This document shows positions 8,224-28,039 of a stretch of DNA of 33,264 nt, in pieces (the first letter of the stretch is position 1; the number at the start of each line of letters is the position of its first letter). Source of the DNA: Segeticoccus rhizosphaerae (GTDB lineage Bacteria > Actinomycetota > Actinomycetes > Actinomycetales > Dermatophilaceae); the NCBI RefSeq assembly GCF_009192725.1, contig NZ_VOHR01000009.1, positions 1 through 33,264 of the forward strand, read 5' to 3'. The notes under the pieces are model-generated. The model was not told the DNA's origin, made no database searches, and saw only the letters and a program-made list of their open reading frames with translations. Made by a program: the position numbers and the translations under genes.

Positions 8224-8245
8224 AATCACCCGTTCGGCCGATGGT
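8224..8245 (+). repeat. 22-nt dispersed repeat, copy 1
   Basis: Its core CACCCGTTCGGCCGATGG sits in the intergenic gap 79 bases before the metalloprotease ATG. The identical 22 bases recur at 25090-25111, also on the plus strand and 58 bases before the start of the NERD gene. Identity stops at both ends. The orientation and placement suggest a shared regulatory element. The GCCGAT resembles the -10 of FliA/WhiG-type promoters, but no matching -35 is seen. Confidence 0.6.
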
Positions 8246-8323
8246 TGCCCCGGCGCGCTGGCTGGCAGGCTTCACGGACTGCCGTCGGCGGGCACCACGA
8301 CCGGAGAGGACGAAGCGCGCAGC

Positions 8324-9295
8324 ATGTCGGGGAGGGGGCGAGCCAAGTGCTGGGACGCGGTCACGTTCGGTCCTGCCCGTCGACGGCGCTGGATGAGGCG
8401 ACGCCTTGCCGAGCTGGACCGGCTCGACCACGAGGCGCCGGAGCCTCTCCCGGTCCTACCGCACACTGTGCGGCCAGCTCGACAGCGACGTCCTGACCAC
8501 ACCCGACGTCGCAGCCGTGCGATCCTTGTCGTGCCGATCGGGCTCCTGCTCGTCGGCACCCTGGCCGTCGGCACCAAGCACGTGCCGCTGTCCGCCCTCC
8601 GCGTCGTGCAACAGGCCGGCGACACCCCACCGATCCCGACCGACGCGCGTCGCGACCCGCTGGGGACGCCGCCTCCCGCACCTGCCGGCGTGGGCGGGTA
8701 TCGCTTCATGGCGCACCTGCCTGGCCGACCGGACGTGCCCGTCGCCTACGATCCGTGCCGCCCCATCCACGTCGTGGTCAGCAACGCGTCGGCGCCACCC
8801 GGTGCCGACCGGCTGGTGCGCGAGGCGATCCGCGAGGTGTCCCGCGCCACCGGACTCGTCTTCATCATCGACGGAGCGACCGACGAGCTGCCCAGCAATA
8901 AGCGGCCGGTGCAGGACAGGAGGTATGGCGACCGGTGGTCACCGGTGCTCGTGGCCTGGACCACGCCGGCCCAAGATCCGAGGCTGCGCGGGCGAGTCGC
9001 CGGTATCGGCGGAAGTGCTGCCGGCAACGGTGGCGGCACGGGCGGCCCGCGGTTTCTCACCGGCGCGGTGAGCTTGGACGTGCCAGCCATCAGCAAGATC
9101 CTGGCCCGACCCGACGGCCACCAGCAGGCACGGGCGATCGTGATGCACGAGTTGGGCCACTTGGTCGGCCTCGCCCACGTGCCCGACCCACGCGAGTTGA
9201 TGTACCCGAAGAACAGCGGTCAGGTGACGTTCGGCGACGGAGACCTGCGCGGGCTGCACGAGCTCGGACTCGGCCGGTGCTACTTCGACACCTGA
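8324..9295 (+). CDS. Membrane-anchored matrixin-like zinc metalloprotease
   Basis: The 323-residue protein has an Arg-rich N-terminus and one hydrophobic segment (AILVVPIGLLLVGTLAVG, about residues 66-83), so the rest probably lies outside the membrane. The C-terminal domain carries the extended zinc-binding motif HELGHLVGLAH (residues 275-285; three His ligands and a catalytic Glu), followed by a Met-turn (ELMYP, Met 293). This is the metzincin/matrixin signature of secreted peptidases; the substrate is unknown. A Gly-rich loop (GIGGSAAGNGGGTGG) lies before the active site. A GGAGAGGA about 14 bases upstream supports ATG 8324, and an in-frame ATG at 8394 is the alternative start. It has no obvious operon partner and follows a 138-base gap holding one copy of the 22-nt repeat. 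Confidence 0.85.
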   Translation: MSGRGRAKCWDAVTFGPARRRRWMRRRLAELDRLDHEAPEPLPVLPHTVRPARQRRPDHTRRRSRAILVVPIGLLLVGTLAVGTKHVPLSALRVVQQAGDTPPIPTDARRDPLGTPPPAPAGVGGYRFMAHLPGRPDVPVAYDPCRPIHVVVSNASAPPGADRLVREAIREVSRATGLVFIIDGATDELPSNKRPVQDRRYGDRWSPVLVAWTTPAQDPRLRGRVAGIGGSAAGNGGGTGGPRFLTGAVSLDVPAISKILARPDGHQQARAIVMHELGHLVGLAHVPDPRELMYPKNSGQVTFGDGDLRGLHELGLGRCYFDT

Positions 9296-9340
9296 GCCAA
9301 GGTCACGAAGAGGCAGGTCTCGCGCCCATTCCGTCGCTAC

Positions 9341-10078
9341 TCAGGTCCGATCGCGGGACTGCTCGGCAAGGAGCGATGGTGCGCGTGTGTGCAGTCCCCA
9401 GCCTGCGAAGGCCATCAGGGTTGCCCCGGGGATGATGCCCGCCACCACGGCCACGACAGCCGCCGATCCTCCGGCGAAGTCGATGACCAGCCCGACCACG
9501 CCGGACAACGCGATCGCGGCGCCGAGCACGTGGAAGAAACGCCGCGCGAAGTGCACCGCCAGTGCGAAGAAGTGCACGCCAACCACCAGCGACACCCAGG
9601 CCACTCCCGCCTCTGGTCGGTCGAGCGGACCTGCGAGCAGGCGAACCCCGGCAAAGATCGCCAGGAACTCCACCACGACGACGATCCAGTAGCCGCGGCC
9701 GAAGGCGGGCCCACGCGCCCCGGAAGGGCCTGTGTCGTGTCTGGTCCCCGCCCCCGGCACGACGTCGCCCTCGGTGTCAGTGCCACGAGCTGCAGCGTCC
9801 ACGGATCGGCGGCGGGCCGCGAGCAGCAGTGCCGCCAGGGCCACGACCCCGAGCACGCGCACCGCCCAGGCGGCGGCTCCCGGGAGGGCCCCAGCGTTCA
9901 CCTCGACATAGATGAACCCGAAGGCCCCTCCGATGAGCGAACCGATCAGTTGTCCTGGCAATGCTGCCTCCCATCCAGTCATCCGCACACCGTCCGGGCG
10001 GCGTCCCTGCACGGTAGCCACCGGGAACGCCCTCACACGAATGTTTACCGTGGCAAGCACGTGACCGTCGACGCGCAC
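9341..10078 (-). CDS. Putative six-helix integral membrane protein
   Basis: No family is recognised. The 245-residue product has about six hydrophobic segments: LIGSLIGGAFGFIYVEV, AVRVLGVVALAALLLAA, WIVVVVEFLAIFAGVRLL, VSLVVGVHFFALAVHF, VLGAAIALSGVVGLVIDF and VVAVVAGIIPGATLMAFAGW. A hydrophilic loop of about 40 residues lies between the second and third. The GTG at 10078 is chosen because GGAGGA sits five bases upstream; an ATG at 9982 is in frame but has no clear ribosome site. It is divergent from the PPOX/TetR pair across a region with tandem palindromes, so it may be under the same repressor. A transport or stress role would be a guess. Confidence 0.75.
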   Translation of the reverse strand: MRVDGHVLATVNIRVRAFPVATVQGRRPDGVRMTGWEAALPGQLIGSLIGGAFGFIYVEVNAGALPGAAAWAVRVLGVVALAALLLAARRRSVDAAARGTDTEGDVVPGAGTRHDTGPSGARGPAFGRGYWIVVVVEFLAIFAGVRLLAGPLDRPEAGVAWVSLVVGVHFFALAVHFARRFFHVLGAAIALSGVVGLVIDFAGGSAAVVAVVAGIIPGATLMAFAGWGLHTRAPSLLAEQSRDRT

Positions 10079-10094
10079 TGACGTCCTCCAACCG

Positions 10095-10136
10095 GCAAGT
10101 AATCACTTGCTGAGGCAAGTGACCCCTTGCTACGTT
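10095..10136. promoter_or_regulatory. Tandem palindromic operators overlapping a promoter
   Basis: Two 16-bp near-identical palindromes lie four bases apart: GCAAGTAATCACTTGC (10095-10110, perfect 6-base arms) and GCAAGTGACCCCTTGC (10115-10130, one arm mismatch). Facing half-sites also form CACTTGC-TGAG-GCAAGTG across the gap. TTGCTG (10107-10112) and TACGTT (10131-10136), 18 bases apart, could be -35 and -10, with transcription starting at about the ATG at 10143. The layout is typical of a TetR repressor site, and a TetR gene is the second gene of the operon. It also lies just upstream of the divergent membrane-protein gene. Confidence 0.7.
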
Positions 10137-10142
10137 GTCTCC

Positions 10143-10616
10143 ATGAATGCTGGACGACAGGGCCGCGGCCGAGCCACCGGAGGCTACTTCGGTGCCTTGA
10201 GCCGCCGCACCTACACACAACTGGTCACCTTCCGCCGCAACGGGACACCGGTCGGCACGCCGGTGCACCTCGCCGCCCCACCGGACGGCGAACGAGGCTA
10301 CTTCCGGACCTGGCACACGACGGGCAAGGCCAAGCGGATGCGGCACACCAAGAGGGTGGAGCTGGCGCCGTCGACCTTCCGCGGGCGTCCGGTGGGTGAG
10401 CCGATCCAGGCGACGGTGCGGCTCCTCGACGGCGCCGAGGCGAAGGTCGCCGCCGACCTGCTCGCGGCACGCCACCCGGTGCTGCACGGCATACTGATCC
10501 CGCGCTACCACCGGATGCGTGGGTGGCGGACCCTGCATTACGAGCTCACTCGGCCGAGCGAGCCAGAGCCTGAGAGTGATTCGAGCCAGCCCAGGACTGA
10601 ACGGGGCAACACATGA
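10143..10616 (+). CDS. PPOX-family F420/FMN-dependent oxidoreductase
   Basis: The 157-residue protein has the split-barrel pattern of the pyridoxamine-phosphate-oxidase-like superfamily: YTQLVTFRRNGTPVGTPVHLA (strands 1-2), YFRTWHTTGKAKRMRHTKRVELAPST (cofactor phosphate-binding stretch), and PIQATVRLLDGAEA. It most resembles small actinobacterial PPOX-class enzymes thought to use deazaflavin F420; FMN or haem use cannot be excluded from sequence. ATG 10143 is chosen because the 5' sequence up to it is promoter-like and nothing resembling a ribosome site is present, so the transcript is probably leaderless. Its TGA overlaps the ATG of the TetR gene (ATGA at 10613-10616), so the two are coupled, and the repressor probably controls this enzyme. 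Confidence 0.82.
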   Translation: MNAGRQGRGRATGGYFGALSRRTYTQLVTFRRNGTPVGTPVHLAAPPDGERGYFRTWHTTGKAKRMRHTKRVELAPSTFRGRPVGEPIQATVRLLDGAEAKVAADLLAARHPVLHGILIPRYHRMRGWRTLHYELTRPSEPEPESDSSQPRTERGNT

Positions 10617-11305
10617 GTGACGACGCACCCACGCGTCAGCGCTTGCTGCGCGAGGCCATGCGTCTCTTCGGCGAACTCGGCTACGCGGCGACCTCCATCG
10701 CCATGATCGAGCAGGCGGCCGGTTTGTCGCCGGGATCGGGCAGCCTTTACAAGCACTTCGCCTCCAAACAGGAACTGCTCAGTGCCGGGCTGGACCAGCT
10801 CCTGCAGGGAACGCCAGAGCTCACCGCGCGCCTCGAGCAGACCTCGAGCCGCGCACTCCCCCGCCGACGCGCCGACGCGGAGGCGGCGCTGAACGCCATC
10901 ATGGTGGAGACGGCCAGGGCCGGGCTTGCCCGGCTGGACCAGGACCGCGACCTCAACCGCCTGCTCTTCCGTGGGCTCGAGGCCTTCCCCCAACTCATGG
11001 CGCGCTTCCGCGACGAGGAGCTCCGCCGAGCACAGGACGCGACTGCCGCGCTCCTGGCTGGGCTGGCCGAGCAAGGCTCACGCCGCATCTCCCGAGGCCA
11101 GAACGCGCGGGGCCAGAACCTCCGAAGCAAGGACGCCAATGGCGGTCACGAGGCGGACTGGGACGCCGTCGCCGTGGTGTTCGTCGGCGCCATCGCGCAC
11201 TACTGGCTGCTGCGGGACGTGTTCGGCGAGCACCCATCCGGCATCGACGAGGACCGGCATGTCGACGCGATCGCTCGCGTCGCCGTTGCGGCTCTGCTCC
11301 GCTGA
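10613..11305 (+). CDS. TetR-family transcriptional regulator
   Basis: The 230-residue protein has an N-terminal TetR helix-turn-helix (residues about 8-55): RQRLLREAMRLFGELGYAAT, SIAMIEQAAGLSPG and SGSLYKHFASKQELL. The all-alpha C-terminal domain holds the presumed ligand pocket and dimer face. There is a basic, Asn/Gly-rich insertion (SRRISRGQNARGQNLRSKDANGG, about 158-180) that looks like a flexible loop. It overlaps the PPOX gene by four bases, and its likely operators are the tandem palindromes at 10095-10130. The natural model is autorepression together with repression of the oxidoreductase and possibly of the divergent membrane protein. The ligand is unknown. Confidence 0.88.
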   Translation: MSDDAPTRQRLLREAMRLFGELGYAATSIAMIEQAAGLSPGSGSLYKHFASKQELLSAGLDQLLQGTPELTARLEQTSSRALPRRRADAEAALNAIMVETARAGLARLDQDRDLNRLLFRGLEAFPQLMARFRDEELRRAQDATAALLAGLAEQGSRRISRGQNARGQNLRSKDANGGHEADWDAVAVVFVGAIAHYWLLRDVFGEHPSGIDEDRHVDAIARVAVAALLR

Positions 11306-11330
11306 AGACGCGAAACCGACATGCCTGTGT

Positions 11331-11352
11331 CCCCGCCCGAGTTGGGGCGGGG
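11331..11352. terminator. Hairpin between convergent TetR and DUF222 genes
   Basis: CCCCGCCC (11331-11338) pairs perfectly with GGGCGGGG (11345-11352) across a six-base loop. It lies in the 60-base gap between two converging genes. There is no T-tract, as is common for actinobacterial terminators, and it could serve both strands. Confidence 0.65.
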
Positions 11353-11365
11353 TGGGGCTGGGAGT

Positions 11366-12697
11366 TCAGGGTTGCCAGGCGATGGTGCCGTCGTCGTGGC
11401 GATGAGGCTTCAGGTCGAGGTCGTGCACTCTCGTATGGTGCCGGGGACAGAGCAGGTAGAGGTTGTCGTGGTCGGTCGGCCCGCCCCGGCTCCACCAGAT
11501 GCCGTGATGGGCAGCGCACCACTGTGCCGGCATCGAGCAGCCCTGGTACGTACACCCTTGCTGCTCCAGCCAGAGCGCCCGCCGCTGCGCCGGCGTGGCC
11601 AGCCTGGCCCGGTGGCCCATGTCCAACACCTCGCTGTCGGCGCCCAGCAGGACCGGGATCAGGTCGGCCTCGCACGCCAGCCGCCGCACCGTCGCCGCAG
11701 TCACCTGGTCGCCGGTCATGGTCCGCCCCAGACCGCGCAGGTCGCCGATGAGCTGCTCCCAGGACACGGTGATGACCACCTTGGCGTTGCTGGTCGTGCC
11801 CGCCTGGCCCGGTGAGGACATGCCCCGTTGGAGGATCATCAAGAACGCATCCGCCCGCCGCTGCTGCGGCGACCGCAGGTCGGGCCCGTCACCGTCCGGC
11901 GCCGGCTTGGCCAACGGATCCACCGCGGCCCGCACGAAGGCCGCGCCCTCCGGGTCCAACCGCACCACGAACTCGGTCAAGTCCCCCGCGACCGCCCGCT
12001 CATACATCCCCCGGCCCCGCCGCTGTGCCCTCTCGAAGTCGTCACTGTCCTGCTCCGGGCGCGCGCACTCCACCAGGTGGCGCAACACCTGCCGCAGTTC
12101 CCGGTCGGTGCCGGTCATCGCGACCGGCAGGATGACCGCCTGATCCGCCACATACTCCTCGAACGCGAGGAACGGCTCGATCTGCTCCAACGCCCGCAAC
12201 ACCCGGTCGGCCTTGCGCACCGGCACCTTCCCCGCCGCGACCGCGTCCGCCAACGGCCGGTGCTTGTCCAACCGGCACGCCGCCGCGACCCGCACCGCCT
12301 GATGCGCGCCCGCCGAGTCCAGGCTCGCGCTGTGCGAAGCCACGTAGTCCTCCCCCGACGAATGGCCCTCCGCACCCGGCGTGTTGCGCCCGACCGCGTC
12401 ACCCACCACCGCGACCATGACCCGCTCCACGTCCCGGCGCACCGAGTCCAACCCCTCCAGGACCGCCCCCAGCTCGTCCTCCTGCAACCGCCACGACTCC
12501 TGCTCCGCCGCCCGCGCCAACGCAGCGGCCGCTGCCTGCACCCCACCCAGCACCGGGCGCCCCTCACCTGCCCATTGGGCGCCGGGCTCAGCCGTTTCAG
12601 CGTGGTTAGCGCCCGCCGCGGTCCGCGCACCAAAGGGCGCCGCAGCCTCCGTGGGCTGCTGCGGGAACTCCTCCGCGGCGAACTGGGATTCGAACAT
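11366..12697 (-). CDS. DUF222 domain protein with C-terminal HNH endonuclease
   Basis: The 443-residue protein has a long alpha-helical DUF222 region (about residues 60-330) and a C-terminal HNH motif: CTYQGC (about 389-394), CAAHHGIWWSRGGPTDHDNLYLLCPRHHTRVHD. The central residues of an HNH nuclease (HH, N, H) and the structural Cys residues are all present, so it looks intact. This family (13E12-type) is abundant and multi-copy in actinobacteria, behaves like a dispersed element, and has no well-defined role. The ATG at 12697 has no ribosome site; a TAGTAT (complement of 12704-12709) six bases upstream could be the -10 of a leaderless transcript. The upstream region is unusually AT-rich and holds DnaA-box-like sequences. 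Confidence 0.88.
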   Translation of the reverse strand: MFESQFAAEEFPQQPTEAAAPFGARTAAGANHAETAEPGAQWAGEGRPVLGGVQAAAAALARAAEQESWRLQEDELGAVLEGLDSVRRDVERVMVAVVGDAVGRNTPGAEGHSSGEDYVASHSASLDSAGAHQAVRVAAACRLDKHRPLADAVAAGKVPVRKADRVLRALEQIEPFLAFEEYVADQAVILPVAMTGTDRELRQVLRHLVECARPEQDSDDFERAQRRGRGMYERAVAGDLTEFVVRLDPEGAAFVRAAVDPLAKPAPDGDGPDLRSPQQRRADAFLMILQRGMSSPGQAGTTSNAKVVITVSWEQLIGDLRGLGRTMTGDQVTAATVRRLACEADLIPVLLGADSEVLDMGHRARLATPAQRRALWLEQQGCTYQGCSMPAQWCAAHHGIWWSRGGPTDHDNLYLLCPRHHTRVHDLDLKPHRHDDGTIAWQP

Positions 12698-12734
12698 GCA
12701 TCCATACTAGCCGACCCACCGACAAACGAAAGAG

Positions 12735-12847
12735 TTATCAACAGCGAATCGCCATATTTCACAGACTAATCCGCGTATCACTCATCCACATCTGCTCCCG
12801 GTCACGTCACGTCATCCACAGCCCGCATGCCGGGAAGCGCATCCACA
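12735..12847 (+). other. Cluster of four DnaA-box-like sequences
   Basis: TTATCAACA (12735-12743), TCATCCACA (12782-12790), TCATCCACA (12812-12820) and GCATCCACA (12839-12847) lie on one strand within 113 bases. They match the TTATCCACA/TTGTCCACA DnaA box at 7 or 8 of 9 positions. The first lies in AT-rich sequence. They fill the gap upstream of the DUF222 gene and the divergent lipoprotein gene. They may be DnaA binding or regulatory sites; nothing else suggests an origin of replication. Confidence 0.4.
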
Positions 12848-12923
12848 GCGAGCGGTCGCTACAGGCGGGTGCACTTCCTAGACTGGTGGCCTCGAGCGCG
12901 GCGCCTGCGGAAGGCGGTGATCC

Positions 12924-14435
12924 ATGCGGCATCCGGCCGGAGCGCCTACGACCAGACGCGAGCCGCGGAGCAGCCCACGGACGGCACGGCTCCGAAGTGC
13001 CCTCGCCGCCGCGTCACTGGCGCTGCTCGCCGCATGTTCGGGGCTCGGCTCCGCCCCTCCAGCCAGCAGCCACCCAACCCACGGGACATCCCGCACCGCA
13101 TCCCCGCCGTCAGCGCCATCTGCCGCGGCGACCGCCGCCTCCACGGCCTCATCCTCGTCCGCGGCGTTGTCGCCGACGACGCACAAGGGTGACTGGACGA
13201 CATACCACCGTGACGGCGCCCGCAGCGGCGTCGCGCCGCACGTCACACCAGTCGGCAAGCTCGCCGTCGCCTGGCGAGCCCACCTCGACGGAGCGGTGTA
13301 TGGCGAGCCTCTCACCGTGGGTGACAGCGTCTTCGTCGCCACCGAGAACGACTCGATCTACAGCCTCGACCGCCACACCGGCGACACGAAGTGGCGCGCC
13401 CACGTCGGCACGCCAGTCCCGCTGTCCGAACTTCCCTGCGGCAACATCGATCCCCTCGGCATCACCGGCACCCCCGTCATCGACCGGGCGAGCAAGCGGA
13501 TCTTCGCGGTCGCGGAGACCACTGGCTCCCACCACGTGCTCGTCGGCATCGACCTCGCGACCGGCCGGGTCGAGGTGCGACGCGATCTCCCCACGCCGGA
13601 CGGACACCCGCGCTTCGACCAACAGCGCCCCGCGCTCGCCCTGGCACACGGCCGCGTCTACGTCAGCTTCGGCGGGCTCTTCGGCGACTGCGGCACCTAC
13701 ATCGGTTCGGTCGTCGGCGTCGCGACCTCCGGTCGCGGGCCCACAGTCACCTACCGTGTGCCAACGGCCAACAACGGTGCGATCTGGGCCACTGGTGGCC
13801 CGGTGATCACCTCGAAGGGCAATCTGCTGATCTCGGTCGGCAACGGTGCGGCCACGAGCGATTCGCAGCCGTATGACGGGAGCGACTCCGTCGTCGAGCT
13901 CTCACCAGGTCTCCGCCGGCTCGGCTTCTTCGCGCCGCGCTCCTGGGCGCAGGACAACGCCGGCGACCTCGACCTGGGCTCGCTCACGCCGGCCCTGACC
14001 AGCCACGGCAGGGTGCTCATCGCCGGCAAGCGCGGCACGGCGTACCTGCTCGACGTCGACCACCTTGGCGGCATCGGCGGAGCTCTCGCCGAGAGGCAGC
14101 TGTGCCGCGGCTTCGGGACGCCCGCCCATCGCGGCGACATCGTCTACCTGCCTTGCGTGGACGGTGGACTCGCCGCCGTCGAGACCTCGGGCGACGACAT
14201 CCGCGTCCTCTGGCGCGGGCCGGCCGACGGCAAGGGCAGTCCGACCATCGGAGCCGGCACGGTGTGGGTGGCGAGCTGGGGCACCGGCACCCTCTACGCC
14301 CTCGACGCCCGGACCGGCGCGGTGCGCGAGCAGCTCGACACCGACGCAACACTGCCACACTTCGTCTCCCCCAGCCTGTCCCGCAACCTGGTGCTGCTGG
14401 GCACGACCGACGGTGTCGTCGCCATCACGCACTGA
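12924..14435 (+). CDS. PQQ-like beta-propeller lipoprotein
   Basis: The 503-residue product has an Arg-rich N-region, a hydrophobic stretch and a lipobox LLAAC (Cys 38), so it is probably a lipoprotein anchored on the outer face of the membrane. A Ser/Thr/Pro/Ala-rich linker (about 40-88) follows. The remainder repeats the propeller pattern of a beta-strand plus a short D-x-x-T-G turn: YSLDRHTGDTKW, VGIDLATGRVE, LYALDARTGAVRE. Such PQQ-like propellers often lack the cofactor and act as scaffolds or dehydrogenase-like domains; no catalytic residues can be assigned here. GGAAGG about 10 bases upstream supports the ATG. A strong hairpin follows the stop codon. Confidence 0.85.
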   Translation: MRHPAGAPTTRREPRSSPRTARLRSALAAASLALLAACSGLGSAPPASSHPTHGTSRTASPPSAPSAAATAASTASSSSAALSPTTHKGDWTTYHRDGARSGVAPHVTPVGKLAVAWRAHLDGAVYGEPLTVGDSVFVATENDSIYSLDRHTGDTKWRAHVGTPVPLSELPCGNIDPLGITGTPVIDRASKRIFAVAETTGSHHVLVGIDLATGRVEVRRDLPTPDGHPRFDQQRPALALAHGRVYVSFGGLFGDCGTYIGSVVGVATSGRGPTVTYRVPTANNGAIWATGGPVITSKGNLLISVGNGAATSDSQPYDGSDSVVELSPGLRRLGFFAPRSWAQDNAGDLDLGSLTPALTSHGRVLIAGKRGTAYLLDVDHLGGIGGALAERQLCRGFGTPAHRGDIVYLPCVDGGLAAVETSGDDIRVLWRGPADGKGSPTIGAGTVWVASWGTGTLYALDARTGAVREQLDTDATLPHFVSPSLSRNLVLLGTTDGVVAITH

Positions 14436-14436
14436 G

Positions 14437-14458
14437 CCCGGGCGGCGGGCCGCCCGGG
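14437..14458. terminator. GC-rich hairpin after the lipoprotein gene
   Basis: CCCGGGCGG (14437-14445) pairs with CCGCCCGGG (14450-14458), giving a nine-base stem and a four-base loop that begins one base after the stop codon at 14435. No T-tract follows. The converging gene ends at 14479, so the hairpin may stop both transcripts. Confidence 0.75.
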
Positions 14459-14478
14459 TTGAGATGGGCCGCGCGGAC

Positions 14479-15060
14479 TCAGCCGTGCAGGGTGGGCCGG
14501 TAGACGAGCTCCTGGGTGTTGCCGTCGAGCGTCCGGCTCTCGAGCAGCTCGAGGTCGAAGTCGGCCGCTCCCCCGAAGATCGGGCTCGCCCCGGTCTGGC
14601 CGGTGATCACCGGGAAGATCGTCACTTGCACCCGGTCGACCAGGCCGGCGGCCATCAGCGCATGGTTCATCGACAGGCTGCCGTGCGAGCGCAACGGCGC
14701 GTCGGACTCCTCCTTGAGCCGGGCGACCACGTCGACGGCGTCGCCGCGCGCAGTTGTCGCGTCCGGCCAATCCAGAGGTTCCTCGAGAGTGCTCGACACG
14801 ACGGTGGCAGGAAGGTTGACCATCCGGGTCACCCACGGGTCAAACACCTCGGACTCCGTGTTGGTCGTGGACAGCATCTGCACGAACTCGCGGAACGTGG
14901 TGGCACCGAAGACCATCCGCTGCTCCCCGCCGTAGAGCTCGAGTCGGTGCTCAAGCAGCTCCGGGCCCTGCTTGCCCCAGTAGCCGCCCCAGTCGCCGCC
15001 GCTCGCGGAGCCGAAGCCGTCGAGGCTGGAGAAGACGTCGAAGGTGTAGGTGGCGGTCAT
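14479..15060 (-). CDS. Dihydrofolate-reductase-like (RibD C-terminal family) protein
   Basis: The 193-residue protein shows the RibD-C/DHFR-like pattern: TFDVFSSLDGFG at the start, RMVFGATTFREF, LEEPLDWPDATT, DVVARLKEESDAPLRSHGSLSMNHALMAAGLVDRVQVTIFPVITG and PIFGG. These folds bind NADPH; most members of this group have unknown substrates and are not true DHFR enzymes. The ATG at 15060 is chosen because GAGGAGGG stands just upstream; the longer frame back to 15117 begins poorly. A 13-base-arm inverted repeat sits 74 bases upstream and may regulate it. It converges on the lipoprotein gene. Confidence 0.82.
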   Translation of the reverse strand: MTATYTFDVFSSLDGFGSASGGDWGGYWGKQGPELLEHRLELYGGEQRMVFGATTFREFVQMLSTTNTESEVFDPWVTRMVNLPATVVSSTLEEPLDWPDATTARGDAVDVVARLKEESDAPLRSHGSLSMNHALMAAGLVDRVQVTIFPVITGQTGASPIFGGAADFDLELLESRTLDGNTQELVYRPTLHG

Positions 15061-15133
15061 GATGCCCTCCTCGAGTGGTTGATCGCGTGCGTAGAGGCAG
15101 ACCGGCGTCCACGGCAAAACTCATCTCGGCCGC

Positions 15134-15185
15134 CGGGACGTCCTGCACCGTGGTCACCAGGGCAGCCACCCCGCAGGACGTCCCG
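15134..15185. promoter_or_regulatory. Long inverted repeat between two minus-strand genes
   Basis: CGGGACGTCCTGC (15134-15146) and its perfect complement GCAGGACGTCCCG (15173-15185) flank a 26-base loop. Each arm also contains the palindrome GGACGTCC, so the arms could be two operator sites rather than one stem. It starts nine bases past the stop of the membrane-protein gene (15194) and 74 bases before the DHFR-like start, so it may be a terminator, an operator, or both. Confidence 0.55.
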
Positions 15186-15193
15186 ATCAGGGT

Positions 15194-15625
15194 CTAGCGC
15201 CACCGATCACCTGCGCCACCGCCCAGGCTGCGCCACACGTAGTCCCACGGCGTGACGGCCACGATGACGACGACCAGCGAACAGTTGACGAGAATTCTCG
15301 TGCGCTCGGCGTCCAGGTCGCCGGCGACGGCGTTGGGGAGCGCAACCAAGCCGAGCCACAGCAGCTTCCACACGACCTCGAAGAGCAGCACGGGCAGCAT
15401 CTTGACCGGATACCGCAGACCCAGCAACGCCAGCAGCGACATGCCGGTGAGCAGGCTGAGGGTCACGCCCTCATAGACCGGCAGCGTGTGGGCGCTGGGC
15501 AAGAGGGGCCACTTCACGAGTGCGAGCCCGACCACCATGAACAGGTAGCCGCCGCGCATCGCATACAGACGCGCGATCGAGAGCGGTGCCGAGGTTGCGG
15601 CCGAGGCCTGGATTGTCGTGGACAT
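15194..15625 (-). CDS. Small four-helix membrane protein
   Basis: The family is not recognised. The product is 143 residues with about four transmembrane segments: YLFMVVGLALVKWPLL, VTLSLLTGMSLLALLGL, LPVLLFEVVWKLLWLGLVAL and ILVNCSLVVVIVAVTPWDYVW. The conserved-looking KWP, FEVVWKLLWL and TPWDYVW suggest a real family, and no catalytic motif is seen. The ATG at 15625 follows a good GGAGGAA; the longer frame upstream to 15997 is the complement of the acetyltransferase gene and is rejected. It lies 110 bases after the acetyltransferase gene on the same strand. Confidence 0.78.
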   Translation of the reverse strand: MSTTIQASAATSAPLSIARLYAMRGGYLFMVVGLALVKWPLLPSAHTLPVYEGVTLSLLTGMSLLALLGLRYPVKMLPVLLFEVVWKLLWLGLVALPNAVAGDLDAERTRILVNCSLVVVIVAVTPWDYVWRSLGGGAGDRWR

Positions 15626-15735
15626 GGGTTCCTCCTGGTGAGTTGTATGACGGGTGGGTTCCTTGGCCGACGTGGTGCGGTTCCCGGCGCCGCGACTGGT
15701 GGAGCGCCTCACGGCGTCGTCGGCGGTGATGCGCT

Positions 15736-17378: not shown

Positions 17379-18067
17379 CAGACGGTCGCTCGGCGGACCG
17401 TGGCGCCCCCGGCGCCGGCGGTCGCGGTGACGGTCTCGGCCTGGCGGTGGTGGCGCCACAGGGACACGCCGAGACCGATGAGGGCGAGCCCCTCCGGCAC
17501 GGCGAACGGGCGGTTGAATCCCTCCGGCAGGACGGCGAGCGCCGCGGTGCCGATGGTGCTCACGGCGAGCAGGGCGGCCGCCCAGCGAGCGAGGATCCCG
17601 GTGCGAAACAGGGCGATGCCGAAGATCAGGCCACCGACCATGTATCCGGCACCAGCGAGGTTGAACAGTGTCTGCAGCGCACCGACGTCGCCGGCCGGCT
17701 TCCCGCCCGTCGAGGCGGCGACCACGTCGTTGACGAAACCGGGCTCCGTGTCCACCAGGTTCGGCAGCACCGTCGCGGCGATGACCTCGACGGACAGCAT
17801 CGCCAGGTAACCGGCGGCGAACATGGCATACCCGATGAGGCCGAGGACGCCGGACTGACGGTGCTGACGCAGGTACATGCCGGTGATGCCGGCGAGTGCG
17901 AGCGCCGCCATCACGATCTTTGCGCAGCTGCGCGCGACCCACTGGCTGGTCTCGGTCGTGAACGTGTCGCTCGCGGGGTGACCGATCTGGACGGCGATGA
18001 AGATGGTCCCAGCGACCGCAGCGGCTGCGCCGGCTGCTTTGGTGAGGCCTGAGGCGGTGATGGTCAT
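17378..18067 (-). CDS. Multi-pass membrane protein, first gene of a MalT-linked operon
   Basis: No named family is assigned. The 229-residue protein has about six hydrophobic segments: AAAAVAGTIFIAVQIG, IVMAALALAGITGMYL, LIGYAMFAAGYLAMLSVEVIAATVL, LFNLAGAGYMVGGLIFGIALF, WAAALLAVSTIGTAALAVL and AVPEGLALIGLGVSLW. The ATG at 18067 with GGAG close upstream is preferred; the frame back to 18277 runs through a palindrome-rich control region. It is followed by the DUF2306 and GNAT genes with one- and four-base overlaps, so these three form an operon. The MalT-type regulator gene lies directly upstream on the same strand. Confidence 0.8.
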   Translation of the reverse strand: MTITASGLTKAAGAAAAVAGTIFIAVQIGHPASDTFTTETSQWVARSCAKIVMAALALAGITGMYLRQHRQSGVLGLIGYAMFAAGYLAMLSVEVIAATVLPNLVDTEPGFVNDVVAASTGGKPAGDVGALQTLFNLAGAGYMVGGLIFGIALFRTGILARWAAALLAVSTIGTAALAVLPEGFNRPFAVPEGLALIGLGVSLWRHHRQAETVTATAGAGGATVRRATV

Positions 18068-18086
18068 GTCGGCTCCTGGATCCGAG

Positions 18087-18174
18087 CGCTGGACCTGGAC
18101 GTCCAGCGATGTTCTGGACGATAGGAACCGACGTGGTGACTCCACATCACCAACTGATGTGACGGAGTTGGTGA
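18087..18174. promoter_or_regulatory. Palindrome-rich control region of the membrane-protein operon
   Basis: CTGGACGTCCAG (18095-18106) is a perfect 12-base palindrome inside the longer CGCTGGAC (18087-18094) and GTCCAGCG (18101-18108) repeat. Further upstream are nested repeats: CACATCA-CCAAC-TGATGTG (18143-18161), TCACCAAC (18147-18154) with GTTGGTGA (18167-18174), and TGGTGA (18134-18139) with TCACCA (18147-18152). All lie between the MalT-like stop and the operon start. They suit binding of at least one dimeric regulator, possibly the adjacent LuxR protein. Confidence 0.55.
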
Positions 18175-18221
18175 TTCGCGGGGCGGCTCTCGATCGGCTC
18201 CCTCCGGGCGCGGCGGGCGCG

Positions 18222-21119
18222 CTAGACGAGCCGCCGCTCGGTGGCACGCAGCACGGCTGCCCGCCTGGTGTTGACACCCAGCTTGGTGAAGATGTGCCGG
18301 GTGTGGGTGCGCAGCGTGTTGACCGACACGAACAGCTGCTGGGCGATCTCCGGTCCGCTCAGGCCGGTCGCCAGCAGCCGGAGCACCTCGAGCTCTCGCT
18401 CGCTCAACCCCTCGTCGGCCCTGGGCTGCCCTGCGGTCGGCGGCTGCGCGGCCGGGTCGGGCTCGGCCGACTTCAGCAGCTGGGTCGCGTGCGCCGCGGC
18501 CGGACTCGCCGGTCGCTGGGTGATGGCCCGCAGGAGCGTCTCCACCGGCGCGCCCTCATCGAGGAACAACCGCCGGTAGCCGACCGGCACGCCGAGACCC
18601 AGGGAGAGTTCGAGGTGTGCGAGCGCTCCTTCGTGGTCGCCGAAGGCATGGTGGGCCAGGGCGCGGACGAGGTGGGCCTCGACCACGCTCCCCCCGCGCC
18701 CGCCGGCCTCAGCCGCCGCCACGAGGGCGTCAAGACGCCGGTCGAGGCTGTCCAGGTCGGCGGAGCGGGTTGCCTCACCGTTCGCCACCGATACCTCGCC
18801 CTCCCCGGACCGCTGCTGCGCGGTGAGCAGCCGGTCGAGGGTGAGTCGGTTGAACTCCATGAGGTATGACGACCGCTCACCACCATCGTCGGCCAGCCCG
18901 ATCCCGTGGTCGCCGTCCAGACCGGTGGCCCAGTCCAGGGCCTCGGCGAGTCGTCCCTGCGCGATGAGGAGGCGGGCTCGCTGCGCCGGGATGGGCCGGA
19001 CGTCGGGGAAGAAGCCGGGCAGATACAGCGACTCGGCCAGGTCCAGCATCTCGAGGGCGCCGTCCAGGTCGCCCTGTGCCTGAAGGAGATTCGCCTTGGT
19101 GGTGTACCAGCGGTGGCGGTTCTCCGGCAACGACGCCCGCTCCCCCAGTTCCTTGGCCGTCTGCAGGTGGCGTTCTGCCCCGACCAGGTCGCCCTGTTCG
19201 CACAGCACGTCGGCGAAACCGACGTGCAGGTCACCGCTCGTCGGGAGCGGTGGGCCCGGGTGTGCCTCCGCCTTCGCGAGCGCTTGCTCGTAGAGCCGCC
19301 GTGCCTTGTCCGGCCTGCCCCGCGTCAGCCACATGATGCCGAGCGGCACGGCCGAGCCGAGCTCGTCGGCGAGGTTGCCCGCCGCACGCAGGCTGCGGAC
19401 CGCCTCGCCGAACGTGTCGACTGCGGTCTCGAGGTCGCCGCTCGCCCAGGCGGCCAGGCCGAGGAATCCGCCGGCGGCGCCACGCGAGAAGTGGTCTCCC
19501 GGGCGGGCGAGGTCGAGGCCGTGCCGGGCGTGTGCGACCGTGCCCACCACGTCACCGCGCGCTTGAGCGAGCGACGCCCGGTAGATCGCGATCATCACAG
19601 GCAGGGCGGCCAACTCCTCCCTGCGTGCCTCCGCTGCCTCCCGCAACGCGGCGGGTTCCCACACGGTGAACGCTGAGGGATCTGACGCGAGCCGGTCCTC
19701 AGCGGCAGCCAGCCCGGCCTCGGCGGCATCGAGGTCGCCGTCCGACATGCGCGCCCACGCCGCGTGGGCCGCGAGCAGCGGGCGCCGACGGACCACCTCC
19801 TCGGGGACAGCCTGGAGCCGGTCGCGAAGGATGCGGTCCTCCCGCCGTTTGCGCAGACCGGGCAGGGCCAACTCCACCAGGTCCGCCGCGAGCTCGATGT
19901 CGTCGCCCTCGACCGCGTGGGACACGGCGTCCGAAAGGCGGCCGTGCTCGGCATACCAGCCGGCTGCCAACCGGTGCAGCGTCCGGACCCGGCTGGCGTC
20001 CTGAGCGGTGAGGCGGGCGCGGAGGGCGTCGGCGAAGAGGTGGTGGTAGCGCCACCACGTCCTGACGTCGTCGAGCGGCACGACGAACAGGTTGGCTCGG
20101 TCGAGCGCCTCCAAGGTCTGCTGCCCGTCGGTGCGTTCAGTCAGGACATCGCACAGGGCGCCGGTCAGCTCACCCAGGACCGACGTGTCGAGCAGGAAGG
20201 AGCGGACGTCTTCGGGCTGGTTATCGAGCACCTCTTCGAGCAGGTAGTCGAGGACGAACCGGTGGGTCCCGGTGAACGCCTCCAGGAAGCTTTCGATGCC
20301 GGCGGCGGTGCCCGGGCGGCCCTGCGCCGACAGCGCGGCCAACTGGAGGCCCGCGGCCCAGCCCTCGGTCCGCTGTTCCAGAGCCGCCACCTGGTCCGGC
20401 TCCAGTCCGAGCCCCATGACCTGGTTGAGGAAGGCGGCCGCCTCCGTCTCGGTGAACCTCAGGTCCGCGGCGCGAAGCTCCAAGAGCTCACCGCGTGCCC
20501 GCAGGCGGGCCAGCTGCAGTGGTGGATCCGCGCGCGTCGTGATCGCCAGGGAGGCCTGGGGCGGGAGGTTGTCGAGCAGGAAGGTGACGGCTTCGTGGAC
20601 ACCGGCGGTGTCGATGGCGTGGTAGTCGTCGAGGGCGAGCACGGTGGCTCCGGCGAGCGCGTCGAGGTCGTTGACCAGGCTCACCAGGACGTCCTCGGTC
20701 GAGACACTCTGATCGGCCTGCAGGAGCACCATCGCCTCGGCGCCGACCCCCGCGCGGACATCCTCATCGGTCGACTCGCCGCTGTCCGTGCCGTCCCCCG
20801 TGGTCTCGGCCGCGCCGGCCCACGCCCAGGCGGCCTCCTGGACGGCAGCCACGAGGTTGGCGACGAAGCGTCGTGGGTCTGCGTCGCGGGCATCGAGGGA
20901 CAGCCACGCGACTCTGCGGGCGGGACCGTGCGCGTCGTCGGCCGTCGCTCCGAGCCACTGGGTCAACAGCGTGGTCTTGCCGAATCCAGCTGGAGCCGCG
21001 ATCAGCACGAGCCTCGGCACAGTGGTCCCGTCGCCGCGGAGCCGGTCGGTGAGGCGGGCCCGGACGACGAGCCCTCTCCGCGGCCGCGGGACTTGCAGCT
21101 TGGTGCCCAGCACCGACAT
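18222..21119 (-). CDS. MalT-like LuxR-family ATPase transcriptional regulator (STAND/LAL type)
   Basis: The 965-residue protein begins [14 protein letters not shown], the usual opening of MalT-like regulators. Walker A is APAGFGKT (42-49); a [12 protein letters not shown] Walker B and [21 protein letters not shown] follow. The middle is helical and TPR-like (residues about 400-860). The C-terminus is a LuxR helix-turn-helix: [45 protein letters not shown] (last 70 residues). Members of this family bind ATP and an inducer, oligomerise and activate nearby promoters. ATG 21119 fits the family start; no strong ribosome site is seen, and the longer frame to 21248 lacks family-like sequence. The likely target is the membrane-protein operon 155 bases downstream, because the control region between carries nested palindromes. 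Confidence 0.9.
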
Positions 21120-21286
21120 CGTGCCAGCGTAGGTCCGCCCCCGCCCCGACCGCCGCGGAATCAAGATGTCCCGCCGAAGCGCACCTCGACCGGGGTCCGG
21201 CTGGCGCCGGAACGGTTTCCCGTTCACACTGGCCGCCCGGGACGCCAATGCCGACGAGATTCATTCGTCGGGTTCGTCGTCCTCAG

Positions 21287-21679
21287 CTACCACACGCCAT
21301 ACCGCGGTTGCCGGGCCCAGTTGGTGCAGGGCTTCGTCGAGCCGGCCCGCACGTGTTGGCACGGTGGGCGAGGAAGGTTCTGGACCGGCTCGTCCCCCTG
21401 CACCAGCGCCAGCTCTGTCCGCAAGATCCAGCCGTTGAGGTAGATCTCGCAGTCGCAGAACCCACCGATCTGGCCGAGGCGTCTCGTCAGCGCGGAGGCT
21501 CGCGGCGCCCGAAGGTCGCGATATCGCAGCGCAAAGCGCAGCTTCCCGTCGCAGCCGAACTCCGCGAGCATCCGGTCCACGTAGCACGCCAGGCACTCCC
21601 CCGCCCGCGGCCCGGTGAGCTCGCCCGCCATACTCCGCACGAGCTCCTCTGCCTGCTCGTCCACCCCTTGTGGTTCCAT
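21287..21679 (-). CDS. DUF2695 family protein
   Basis: The 130-residue protein carries GECLACYVDRMLAEFGCDGKLRFALRYRDL and RLGQIGGFCDCEIYLNGW, the signature of DUF2695. The paired Cys (CLAC, CDC) may bind a metal. The function of the family is unknown. The C-terminal 30 residues (NLPRPPCQHVRAGSTKPCTNW) lie outside the domain. The ATG at 21679 is preceded by AAGGGGTGGG, a possible ribosome site; longer upstream readings in this frame are antisense to the esterase gene. Confidence 0.75.
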   Translation of the reverse strand: MEPQGVDEQAEELVRSMAGELTGPRAGECLACYVDRMLAEFGCDGKLRFALRYRDLRAPRASALTRRLGQIGGFCDCEIYLNGWILRTELALVQGDEPVQNLPRPPCQHVRAGSTKPCTNWARQPRYGVW

Positions 21680-21791
21680 CACCCACCCCTTCGATCGCCG
21701 TCTACGGCGATCTTGCTGCCGACCACCGACAGACCGAGTCAAGCTGGACCAGCTCCCGCCCGCCCATCGGGTATGTGGTCCGCTCGCCTCC

Positions 21792-22733
21792 TCAACGTCG
21801 CTGCCCGAAGGCCGCCTGGAGCCGCCCCGCCGCGTAGGACTGTGCCTCCCGTGCGCCGCTGAGCCGCTCCCCGAAGAGCAGGAAGGTGTGGAACATGCCC
21901 TCATACCGGCGCACCTCCACCGGCACACCGGCCTGGCGCAGCCGTAGGGCATACGCCTCTCCCTCGTTGCGTAGCACGTCGGAGCCGGCGGTGATGACGG
22001 TGGCCGGTGGCAGGCCGGTGAGGTCCGCGCACCGCAGCGGCGCGAGCTCGGGGTCGTCGAGGTCCACGTCCGCCGGAAGGTACTGCTCGAAATACCAGTC
22101 CATGTCCCCGCGCGTGAGCGGCAGTCCGGTGGCGAACTCCGCATAGCTCGGCCACTGTTCGGGGTGGGTGTCCACCACGGGCACCAGGAGCAGCTGGTGC
22201 ACGAGCCGTTCGTGTCCCCGGAGCTGCTGGGCGGCGACGGCCGACAGGTTGCCCCCGGCGCTGTCCCCGCCGACGGCGACCGGGAGCCCGTCGAGACCCA
22301 GGCCCGCCTCGTCGTCGAGCAGCAGCCGCACCGTGTCGACGACGTCGTGGACCGCGGCGGGGAAGCGATGCTCCGGCGGCTGCCGGTAGTCCACCGCGAC
22401 CACCGCGCACCCGGCCAGGTCCGCGAGGCTGCGGCACAACGCGTCATGGGTCTCCAGGTCCCCCAACGCCCAGCCGCCACCGTGGACGAACACCAGCACG
22501 GAATCTGGTTCCGGCGCGGGGAGGTAGACCCTGACCGGGATGGGGCCCGCGCGTCCGGTCACCTCAGCGTCCCGCACGGACCACAGCGGTGGTCCCGCTC
22601 CGAGGTCCCGCGCCGGGGCCAGCATGGCCTGCCGGTTCTCCTCGACGGTCAGCCCCTGCCGCTCCGGTCGGGGCGGCACCTGTGCCAGCACCTGCTCCGC
22701 CTCCGGGCTCAGTCCCAGGTGTTCGCTCGCCAT
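21792..22733 (-). CDS. HSL-type alpha/beta-hydrolase (esterase/lipase)
   Basis: The 313-residue protein has the oxyanion-hole motif HGGGW (residues 84-88), the nucleophile elbow GDSAGG (Ser 158), and the likely remaining triad members Asp 252 (AGSDVLRNEG) and His 282 (GMFHTF). This is the hormone-sensitive-lipase (bacterial family IV) pattern, usually a cytoplasmic esterase acting on short-chain acyl esters. Motif VAVDYRQPPEHRFPAAVHD also fits. The length is normal and all catalytic residues are present, so it looks active. AGGAGAGG lies three bases before the ATG at 22733. Confidence 0.92.
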   Translation of the reverse strand: MASEHLGLSPEAEQVLAQVPPRPERQGLTVEENRQAMLAPARDLGAGPPLWSVRDAEVTGRAGPIPVRVYLPAPEPDSVLVFVHGGGWALGDLETHDALCRSLADLAGCAVVAVDYRQPPEHRFPAAVHDVVDTVRLLLDDEAGLGLDGLPVAVGGDSAGGNLSAVAAQQLRGHERLVHQLLLVPVVDTHPEQWPSYAEFATGLPLTRGDMDWYFEQYLPADVDLDDPELAPLRCADLTGLPPATVITAGSDVLRNEGEAYALRLRQAGVPVEVRRYEGMFHTFLLFGERLSGAREAQSYAAGRLQAAFGQRR

Positions 22734-22974
22734 GGCCTCTCCTATCCGTGCCCCTCGTCACCGTAGCGCGGTGCCGTCGCATCGACCTGTTCGTCGGCCT
22801 GCGGTGTGGCAGGCTCGAGGGAGCTCGAAGACCGCACGAACTCGCCATTCTCAACAAGGAATGGCGGGTCGCGCTCCGCACGGACGGCGTGATCAGTCAC
22901 TTCCCGACGACCAGGCTCGCAGCACTCGGGCCCTTGACGACCCTTACGAGCTCGCTTGGGCCTCAGTGGGACCG

Positions 22975-23380
22975 AGCTCTTCAAACGGTGTGAGGTGCAC
23001 GTTCACCGGGTGCGTCGAACCGGGCGTTGAGCGAGGCCCACGGGGTCCCGGGTTGGCGGCGCAACCTGGGTGACGCCTCCGTCGACCGCCGCCGCGGAGG
23101 CCTTCGCCGCGTCACCGACCTCGAGATCGAGCCTCAACCGCGGCGCGACCCGCCGGCCGACATCGACCTCGTCGAATCATCTCCAGCTGGGCGCGGTGTT
23201 GGCGATCTAAAGGGTCGCTCGGCCGGCATCGAGGATCGTGACCTCCGCGCCTCCGCCCCCGGCAAATGCCGCCTCCTGCGGCATGCCCAGTACGTCACGG
23301 AAGAAGCGCAACGCTGCCCCGTAGTCCTCCGCATGGACGACCAGCCGCAGCTGGCGCACGCCGGTGTCGTCGTCGCTCAT
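22975..23380 (-). pseudogene. Decayed VOC (glyoxalase/bleomycin-resistance fold) protein
   Basis: From an ATG at 23380 the frame reads VRQLRLVVHAEDYGAALRFF, RDVLGMPQEAAFAGGGGAEV and TILDAGRATL, a normal VOC N-terminal half, and then meets a TAG (23207-23209) where homologues usually have Glu. The following bases read AQLEMI in a shifted frame, and the original frame meets a second stop. DEVDVGRRVAPRLRLDLEV and AVDGGVTQVAPPTRDP continue after it. The end of the fold appears in yet other frames (WASLNARFDAPG, then VHLTPFEEL at about 22978-22995). So at least two stops and several indels interrupt a recognisable gene. It cannot give a full-length VOC protein. Confidence 0.75.
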
Positions 23381-23715
23381 GGCACGGTCAACTCCGACCT
23401 GCGAAAGAACTTCCCGTCTCCTGCCACGTTCAGTGAAGTCCTCCGTGGCTCGCACCAATAGCTTGCCCCCGACGCGGACCGGTCCCATCATGATCCTGGT
23501 CGACGATGCACCAGCCTCGCCGCCGCAATGCTTCGATCAGATCGACCAGTTGATCTCGCTGATAGGCCCTCGTGCTGGTATGCCGCACCGGCAGCCGCTC
23601 CGTTCCGGGCCGGTCAGCTCGGCAGCCTCGCGACCTGAAGCTCGGGCAGGGCGTTCGTCGCCTGCCCGGCTCGAGAAACATGGTTGACCATCACGCTCCG
23701 GCAATCGCGCTGACG
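23381..23715. other. Gene-poor interval upstream of the VOC pseudogene
   Basis: No gene is recognised here. One minus-strand frame near 23490-23590 reads QRDQLVDLIEALRRRGWCIVD, which looks protein-like but has no clear start, ribosome site or family. It may be more of the decayed sequence or a chance reading. Confidence 0.4.
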
Positions 23716-24876
23716 TCACGGGCACGGAATCTTGGTGTAGCGCCGGCCCTTCTCATCGATCGAGGTGCCATCGGGACCGTAGGCGCGGCAGCCGGTGTAA
23801 CCGTCGTACCCACCAGAGCGAGGCGCGGGCGGCGCAGCCTCCTTTTTCGTTGTGCTCGGCGGCGGCGCCGGGTTGGTCTCTGGTGCGGGTGTGTACCTAG
23901 GGGCGGGAGCCGGCGGCTTTGCTGCGGCATCACGACGTGCCTGAGCCTCGCGCTCAGCCGCCGCTCGGGCCTCGGCTTGCGCTTCCTCCTTCTGCCGCGC
24001 GGCCGCAGCCGCCTCCTTCTTGCGCTGGGCGGCGGCTCTCGCAGCCGCACGGCGTTCGGCCGCCTTCGCCTTCTTCGTATCGAGCTGCTTGGCGATCCGT
24101 CGATCGTTGGCGCGGGCCTCCTTCACCAGGGATCTGGCCTGGGCCGCAAGCTTCTCTTTGAGCGATCCGTCGACGGCGCGCCACGCGAGTGAGGTATGAG
24201 GCTTGTCGAAGAGTTCGCGGACGGCCACAGCAGCCAAGAGCGCGTTTGACGACTCCTGCTGCGCTGCGGTCAATTCTGCGACGGTCGCCTGACTCGTGAT
24301 CCCGGGGGCCGCCGCTACCTGTTTTTGGACCTGCTGGACCTGTCCAGGGACTGTGCAGTCGACCTTCTGCGAGAACAGGCCCCGCCGTCCGGCGACCGCT
24401 TGCTGCTGGGCTGCCTTCACGTCGGTCAGGAACCGCTGGTTGGGTGCGACGTATTTGGCGATGCCCAAGCCCGCGCGCGCGATCGCGGCGTTGACGAAAG
24501 TGCCATTCTGGGTGAAGACACCAGCGAGGGTTCGCCCGTAGCGATCGGTGCGGTCCACGTCATACTTCAATTTCACCGGGGTGCCTTCGGGCAGGAGTCT
24601 CTTGAGGAACTCCGTCGCCTGTGGGCCCAGGCACTGCACCGGCTTGTCCGGGTCCTTGGTCTCTGGGGTGTCGACGTTGAGCAGGCGAACCCGCTGCACG
24701 ACTCCGCCTGTCTTCACGTCCACCGTGTCGCCGTCAATCACCCGGCTCACCACGGGTGGTGCAACGGCACTGCCCGGCTCCTCGGGCTGAACCGCGACCA
24801 CTGCCGCGCCGACGCCGACTACCCCAACGGCGCCCGCGCTGATGAGGCTCAAGACGAGGGTGACAGGGGCGACCAC
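23716..24876 (-). CDS. Exported thermonuclease (staphylococcal nuclease homologue) with coiled-coil tail
   Basis: The 386-residue protein begins with a hydrophobic stretch (VLSLISAGAVGVVGVGAAVVAV), a signal or anchor. Residues 42-170 form an SNase domain: VIDGDTVDV, RVRLLNVDTPE (Arg 64, Asp 69, Thr 70, Glu 72) and DRYGRTLAGV (Arg 115), so the catalytic set matches Arg35/Asp40/Glu43/Arg87 of the classic enzyme. Residues about 240-330 are an Ala/Lys/Arg/Glu-rich predicted coiled coil, followed by a Pro-rich linker and a C-terminal GYTGCRAYGP... RRYTKIPC module with two Cys that could form a disulfide. It probably digests DNA or RNA outside the cell or at the wall. The GTG start at 24876 has GGAGG just upstream. 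Confidence 0.85.
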   Translation of the reverse strand: MVAPVTLVLSLISAGAVGVVGVGAAVVAVQPEEPGSAVAPPVVSRVIDGDTVDVKTGGVVQRVRLLNVDTPETKDPDKPVQCLGPQATEFLKRLLPEGTPVKLKYDVDRTDRYGRTLAGVFTQNGTFVNAAIARAGLGIAKYVAPNQRFLTDVKAAQQQAVAGRRGLFSQKVDCTVPGQVQQVQKQVAAAPGITSQATVAELTAAQQESSNALLAAVAVRELFDKPHTSLAWRAVDGSLKEKLAAQARSLVKEARANDRRIAKQLDTKKAKAAERRAAARAAAQRKKEAAAAARQKEEAQAEARAAAEREAQARRDAAAKPPAPAPRYTPAPETNPAPPPSTTKKEAAPPAPRSGGYDGYTGCRAYGPDGTSIDEKGRRYTKIPCP

Positions 24877-25089
24877 AGGTCCTCCAGGAGGACAGAAGGG
24901 GGAGCGGGCGATGCGGCTTACACCTTAGTCATCGCTCGGAAAGCCCGCAGGGTACGGTTAACTTGCCATCCCGCCTCGCTGTGGTCAGAGCAGACGCGTA
25001 TGCCGTCGCCCCGCCGTGATCACCGAGGTGACTACAGAAATGTCCCCTCTCTGACGGCCACGAGAGGCACTTCGTCTCCACCAAGGCAA

Positions 25090-25111
25090 AATCACCCGTT
25101 CGGCCGATGGT
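25090..25111 (+). repeat. 22-nt dispersed repeat, copy 2
   Basis: It is identical over 22 bases to 8224-8245. It lies 58 bases before the ATG of the NERD gene and in the same orientation relative to the downstream gene as copy 1. It may mark the promoter or leader of that gene. Confidence 0.6.
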
Positions 25112-25168
25112 CCGCCCGTCCACCCCTCGGCAGACTGGAGCCTCCGCCGTCCGAACGAGAGAAGTGGC

Positions 25169-27999: not shown

Positions 28000-28005
28000 G
28001 ACGAC

Positions 28006-28039
28006 AGTCTATTGACGTCAAGCACCCGTCGTGGGTCAA
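28006..28039 (-). promoter_or_regulatory. Possible promoter of the HNH gene
   Basis: On the minus strand TTGACC (complement of 28034-28039) is followed after 18 bases by TCAATA (28010-28015) and overlapping TAGACT (28006-28011). Transcription would begin within a few bases of the GTG at 27999, in line with the missing ribosome site. Confidence 0.35.

Follow-up and report, generated by a model that had tools for sequence, protein, structure and literature searches.

A repeated 22-nucleotide leader element of Segeticoccus rhizosphaerae as a probable activator operator shared with the Flp pilin gene of a Tad operon

The window analyzed here, i.e., the whole stretch of 33,264 nucleotides (nt) from Segeticoccus rhizosphaerae (contig NZ_VOHR01000009.1), contains the 22-mer AATCACCCGTTCGGCCGATGGT twice on the same strand and between unlike flanks, once ahead of a gene for an M10/matrixin-type metalloprotease and once ahead of a gene for a NERD-domain protein (Table 1; protein lengths in amino acids, aa). 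The next starts, as judged by eye, are an ATG 79 nt past the end of the first copy and an ATG 58 nt past the end of the second, and a purine-rich stretch lies ahead of both. The metalloprotease has an HELGH motif and, by eye, a hydrophobic stretch at its N-terminus. An initial annotation made from the sequence had reported these identical copies, with their distances and differing flanks, and we confirmed its coordinates and sequence. Taken as a whole, our data are probably best explained by an activator operator that is read by a response regulator encoded on the Tad side; that the 22-mer is a regulatory operator is, in itself, very likely.

Table 1. Coordinates of the repeat, of the proposed promoter boxes and of the proposed target genes (positions are those of the window; for genes elsewhere in the genome the contig is given)
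Feature	Location	Strand	Remarks
22-mer copy A, putative activator site	8224..8245	+	14-nt core CGTTCGGCCGATGG at 8231-8244
Proposed -10 CAGGCT	8266..8271	+	21 nt after copy A core
M10/matrixin-type metalloprotease, 323 aa, proposed copy A target	8324..9295	+	Pfam PF00413, E 4e-6
22-mer copy B, putative activator site	25090..25111	+	core at 25097-25110
Proposed -10 CAGACT	25131..25136	+	20 nt after copy B core
NERD-domain protein, 212 aa, proposed copy B target	25169..25807	+	Pfam PF08378, E 2e-12
Flp pilin gene heading Tad operon	C740		element in leader
479-aa membrane protein, no Pfam match	C740		element in leader
Ltp-repeat protein, export-like N-terminus by eye	C13		element in leader
GmrSD_C and lamin-tail protein, export-like N-terminus by eye	C135		element in leader
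254-aa protein of no assigned role	C185		element in leader

No exact repeat in the window is longer than the 22-mer, the runner-up being an 18-nt inverted pair. Of Markov-simulated windows, one out of 500 at order 1 and two out of 500 at order 3 contained a direct exact repeat of at least 22 nt; in a cruder simulation, in which inverted repeats and self-palindromes were also counted, 4 out of 100 windows had repeats of at least 22 nt, whichever of three orders was used. Throughout the 4.44 Mb genome, the exact 18-mer core was found in the two window copies only. With up to 3 mismatches, the 18-mer was found at 13 places in the genome (including the window copies), which is approximately the expectation from window shuffles (mean 0.10 per 33 kb). 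As the number of near-matches is so close to this expectation, a plain mismatch search fails to reveal a regulon; the regulon is revealed by the spaced -10 box. An Rfam scan of the window found no family at gathering score, and a tRNA scan of the window was likewise empty.

A core pattern, SGWWYRGCCGATGK, was derived by aligning near-matches in leaders (contigs C135 and C185 and both strands of C740) with the window copies. This pattern has 8 matches in the S. rhizosphaerae genome, as compared to 2.7 expected from base composition, and none in a reversed control (a weak one, since reversal alters CpG content). Seven of the 8 matches are sense-oriented leader sites, each of them with a NANNNT box 20-21 nt past the core. 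The chance of finding the box at 7 of 7 leader sites is approximately 5e-10, with the spacing rule having been derived from five of these same sites; the only sites new to the rule, on C13 and C135, both fitted it. On C185, a second element faces a divergent gene. The remaining core match (C401), which lacks a -10 box and overlaps the 3' end of an opposite-strand gene, was rejected as a regulon site. A composite pattern (CGTTCRGCCGATGK-N20/21-NANNNT) was found 5 times in the S. rhizosphaerae genome (0.011 expected), once in 185 other genomes of the family and not at all in the control. A looser search at 20-nt spacing returned the same seven sites plus two matches inside called genes (C357 and C690), which were judged to be chance matches; a loose element at window position 13294 was also discarded, as it lies inside a called gene. 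Among the readings offered by the initial annotation, that of a regulon motif is supported by the leader sites, and a genome scan for position bias, which it had proposed and which we ran with the core pattern, found that the motif is not scattered regardless of genes.

Outside the S. rhizosphaerae genome, 28 Flp leaders were examined before the pattern was fixed (one further locus, L210, was dropped, as no pilin motif was found in it). The strict core was present in 6 of these 28 leaders, with NANNNT at exactly 20 nt in 5 of them (shuffle mean 0.02; reverse strand 0). A held-out set comprised 60 further Flp leaders, taken from among the matches listed. Here the strict core occurred 8 times, 3 times with NANNNT at 20 nt as compared to 0.037 in shuffles, while every other spacing was found at most once and the reverse strand showed none at 20 nt; the loose core gave 6 at 20 nt, as compared to 0.22 in shuffles. 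Judged by this pattern and spacing, the element is real at Flp promoters, though in a minority of them. In the Flp elements of relatives, GCCGAT varies (GCGTAT, GCCTAT, GTCCAT) while the ATG and the spacing are kept. One genome (G005) has the element before each of two Flp genes, and in another (G205) the Flp gene is preceded by TGGCCGATGT-N20-CAGGCT and the orthologue of the membrane protein has kept the operator, with one mismatch, before its start. Among 22 metalloprotease orthologue loci outside the S. rhizosphaerae genome, an element with a -10 box outside genes was found only in genome G022, where it lies 33 nt before the start of the orthologue (49% identity). For the NERD protein, a search of 35 further genomes of the family gave no match at E 1e-10; the only matches were in six genomes of other families.

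Taking NANNNT as the -10 box, at -12 to -7, would centre the core near -40, and there is no conserved -35 box. Class II activators bind near -40, and this arrangement, i.e., a putative activator position near -40 ahead of a presumed -10 box, was seen at 7 of 7 leader sites of S. rhizosphaerae. The first letter of the -10-like box is C in 14 of 23 elements and T in only 2. The initial annotation had also considered a non-standard promoter; this holds insofar as the element would replace the -35 box and the -10-like box rarely begins with T, and is otherwise only partly right. The left hexamer of the 23 elements matched the reverse complement of CCGATG in 4.09 of 6 positions when the two halves abut (gap 0; 1.69 expected by chance, and no more than 2.57 at any other gap), which is suggestive of a dyad; the left-half positions that the search pattern leaves free fit better in relatives (A in 10 of 16, T in 11 of 16) than in the sites of S. 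rhizosphaerae. In the model we propose, one and the same activator operator would be present in both 22-mers. Its core, with CCGATGK as right half and a degenerate left half, would be centred near -40 instead of a -35 box, and a DNA-binding protein occupying it, probably as a dimer, would recruit RNA polymerase to a weak -10 box (NANNNT) 20-21 nt downstream; the same operator and spacing would serve at least seven genes, including the Flp pilin gene of the Tad operon.

The likeliest activator would be a NarL/GerE-type response regulator (Response_reg-GerE) that is encoded with a HisKA_3 histidine kinase (C740, 5147-7392) on the contig that also carries the Tad operon, with the pair presumably answering to a sensed signal. 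Homologues of the regulator were sought by tblastn in the stretches fetched for two sets of Tad loci, and showed 48.6-65.9% identity where found. Of the loci, 45 were judged, with three genomes (G205, G204 and G168) excluded because the contig was too short or the stretch had no TadA, and with G098 counted twice for its two Tad operons. By the loose core, 15 loci had both element and regulator, none had the element only, 8 had the regulator only and 22 had neither (1.9e-6, Fisher test); counted by genus, the corresponding numbers were 9, 0, 2 and 8 (0.0007). By the strict core, the numbers were 9, 0, 14 and 22 (0.0015; 0.013 by genus). Four of the regulator-only loci carry something similar to the element: there is a clear near-element in G171, which 4 of 300 shuffles equalled, and a weak one each in G121 and G178, while G181 has an element with NANNNT at 22 nt. 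We consider it somewhat probable that this regulator binds the operator, and regard it as a strong but unproven candidate.

A number of observations weigh against this interpretation. The Fisher values ignore relatedness, and whether a locus had the element played a part in its selection; in the second set, moreover, the loci with the element come from two genera only, both of which are represented in the first set. The element was missing from 8 of 23 regulator-bearing loci by the loose core and from 14 of 23 by the strict core, and in S. rhizosphaerae itself there are three called genes between the end of the Tad operon and the regulator pair. A strict core with the spacing is missing from most Flp leaders in the family (present in 5 of 28 and in 3 of the 60 held-out leaders among the matches listed), the loose core gives 2 on the held-out reverse strand, and the leader of the membrane-protein orthologue in G205 has no NANNNT at 20-21 nt. 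The count of S. rhizosphaerae sites is partly circular, as the pattern was designed from sites in that genome. Finally, the dyad is imperfect: reading the elements as a direct repeat at offset 8 also yields 3.39 of 6, the search pattern dictates the C-R-G of the left half, and the S. rhizosphaerae sites match poorly in this half.

The best-surviving alternative is that a different factor, i.e., another GerE-type regulator or a repressor, reads the operator and that the Tad-side regulator is merely co-inherited. Two genomes (G022 and G158) bear the element and have no Flp match at E 1e-5 among the matches listed, which also counts against our interpretation, and in G158 the element lies 34 nt before a different pair of histidine kinase and GerE response regulator genes; such sites can therefore not be read by a regulator of the C740 type alone. 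A MalT-like LuxR regulator encoded in the window could also be invoked here. On the other hand, the Tad-side regulator gene is present in 15 of 15 judged Tad loci that bear the element, and we regard the alternative as rather unlikely. A family of related GerE regulators that read similar sites would explain the findings in G022 and G158. The MalT-like gene (18225-21248, minus strand) lies between the two copies of the 22-mer and encodes a protein of 1008 aa with AAA, TPR and GerE domains; a scan for the loose element found none in its leader.

A second alternative is that the GCCGATGG part of the repeat represents the -10 box of a WhiG/FliA-type (sigma-28) promoter. The S. rhizosphaerae genome encodes a WhiG/FliA-type sigma factor above the NCBIfam cut-off, and the sigma gene adjoins a GGDEF gene with CTCA-N17-GCCGATGG in its leader. 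In two other families of the order, moreover, the same or a near 19-mer forms the spacer and -10 box of CTCA/TTCA-N16/17-GCCGAT promoters (L142, L143, L146 and L147), and the promoter at L143 stands before fliQ. In the window, GCCGATGG is present in both copies, while the final AA of a GCCGATAA-like -10 box is absent; as judged by eye, neither CTCA nor TAAA occurs at 15-17 nt, with only CARG at 19 nt, and the window copies were not among the matches of a scan for CTCA, TTCA or GTCA as -35 box. Since the -35 box is missing, this reading was rejected for the window copies. All seven S. rhizosphaerae sites also have the -10-like box 20-21 nt downstream, and the Flp elements of relatives alter GCCGAT yet keep the ATG and the spacing. 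On balance, a sigma-28 promoter is an improbable explanation.

Several side observations concern this sigma factor and the 19-mer. The sigma and GGDEF genes (L156, contig C103, 3573-6124) lie in that order and suggest a sigma-28 regulon linked to cyclic di-GMP and separate from the operator. The four promoters in the other families precede different genes and share the spacer TCACCCGTTCG or TCACCCGGTCG, which is identical to, or one letter off, part of the window 22-mer. With one mismatch allowed, a search of 186 genomes of the family and 396 of the order found the 19-mer at 18 loci outside the S. rhizosphaerae genome (15 intergenic and 3 genic by the gene caller trained on the window). The intergenic loci were rejected as proof of a regulon, as they mostly have no spaced -10 box and four are the sigma-28-type promoters; most of the remaining loci have no common partner box by eye. 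Four of the intergenic 19-mers with one mismatch (L130-L133, in G175, G177, G178 and G179) have no -10 box at 20 nt, and GCGCC precedes three of them; no FliA_WhiG match above the cut-off was found in these four genomes.

That two long identical words should stand in two leaders by accident is very improbable, in agreement with the initial annotation, which had thought chance unlikely. It can be said for chance that 22-nt direct repeats do arise in 1-2 of 500 simulated windows and that many windows were presumably scanned, and that the exact 18-mer has 21 matches in a collection of 257 Gb, 11 of them inside called genes and 10 outside (the gene caller was trained on the window and is rough for other phyla). 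The intergenic matches include three in Cellulomonas and one in Phycicoccus; the latter (L052, Phycicoccus sp. Root101, placed by NCBI in Intrasporangiaceae, Micrococcales) has the same sequence as locus L129 of the family search, which places this strain within the family. Against chance stand the fixed -10 spacing at seven S. rhizosphaerae promoters and its recurrence in the held-out Flp leaders. A small dispersed repeat or mobile element, to which two identical copies 17 kb apart might point and which the initial annotation had also listed, is hardly credible, as the 4.44 Mb genome has only two exact copies with no extended flank, oriented alike with respect to their genes, and the core is common to diverged leader sites.

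Other features were noted near the subjects of this study. On C740, a phosphoribosyltransferase-like frame (ComF-like, by eye) just upstream of the Tad operon has a near-perfect palindrome (GGGTCATCCGTTCGGATGACCC) at its end, approximately 100 nt before the Flp element (L173). In the window, an HNH_2 gene adjoins a gene for a large PLD-ResIII-DUF3427 helicase (27085-31230), an arrangement that resembles a restriction or defence pair. A PDDEXK protein and a UvrD-PDDEXK helicase-nuclease are encoded as a pair at 30-6256, which we take to be AdnAB/AddAB-like.

An activator operator read by the Tad-side response regulator would provide a first context for a NERD protein and a metalloprotease without known role, and control of the Tad pilus becomes directly testable in this group, now that there are an operator of defined sequence, a candidate for its regulator and a short list of targets. 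More tentatively, the targets may represent a previously unrecognised pilus regulon of Actinomycetota, in which a NarL-type two-component switch would drive the Tad pilus together with nuclease-like (GmrSD_C-type), NERD, membrane-metalloprotease and surface proteins captured in S. rhizosphaerae, as a coordinated contact, DNA-handling or DNA-uptake programme. Micrococcus luteus belongs to the same order as the family of S. rhizosphaerae. In M. luteus, Flp pilus biogenesis has been linked to natural transformation (PMC4322843), and com promoter activity or transformation is altered by mutations in a putative two-component regulator and in the vicinity of Tad-type genes (PMC8467076); the passages of the latter paper at hand describe no operator such as the one reported here, and a DNA-binding protein to which they draw attention carries an HTH_17 domain. 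How competence is controlled in Actinomycetota has been described as little known (PMC12849477), and among the matches listed in a search of open PMC papers there was no such regulator or site in this phylum. In Rubrobacter, a WhiG/FliA sigma factor is reported to control type IV pili, with TAAA as consensus -35 box and GCCGATAA as -10 box (PMC8325347); GCCGAT, pilus genes and such a sigma factor are common to both cases, whereas the window copies have no -35 box.

Two-component control of Tad pili is itself already known. In Pectobacterium, as in S. rhizosphaerae, genes for a kinase and a regulator lie near the Tad cluster, which they adjoin in the former, and a mutant of the regulator shows lowered flp/tad expression; the Pectobacterium regulator, however, has an OmpR-type domain rather than GerE, and the passages of this paper available to us give no operator (PMC3767616). 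In Pseudomonas aeruginosa, the response regulator of the PprA-PprB system is required for transcription of flp (Tad pilus) and also acts on other targets, in which the proposed role of the C740 pair would resemble it; the phylum differs, and the putative PprB recognition site, GGCTAATAC, is unlike CCGATGK (PMC6821963). Compared to these systems, the very likely operator described here would represent control by a GerE-type regulator, in another phylum and through another operator.

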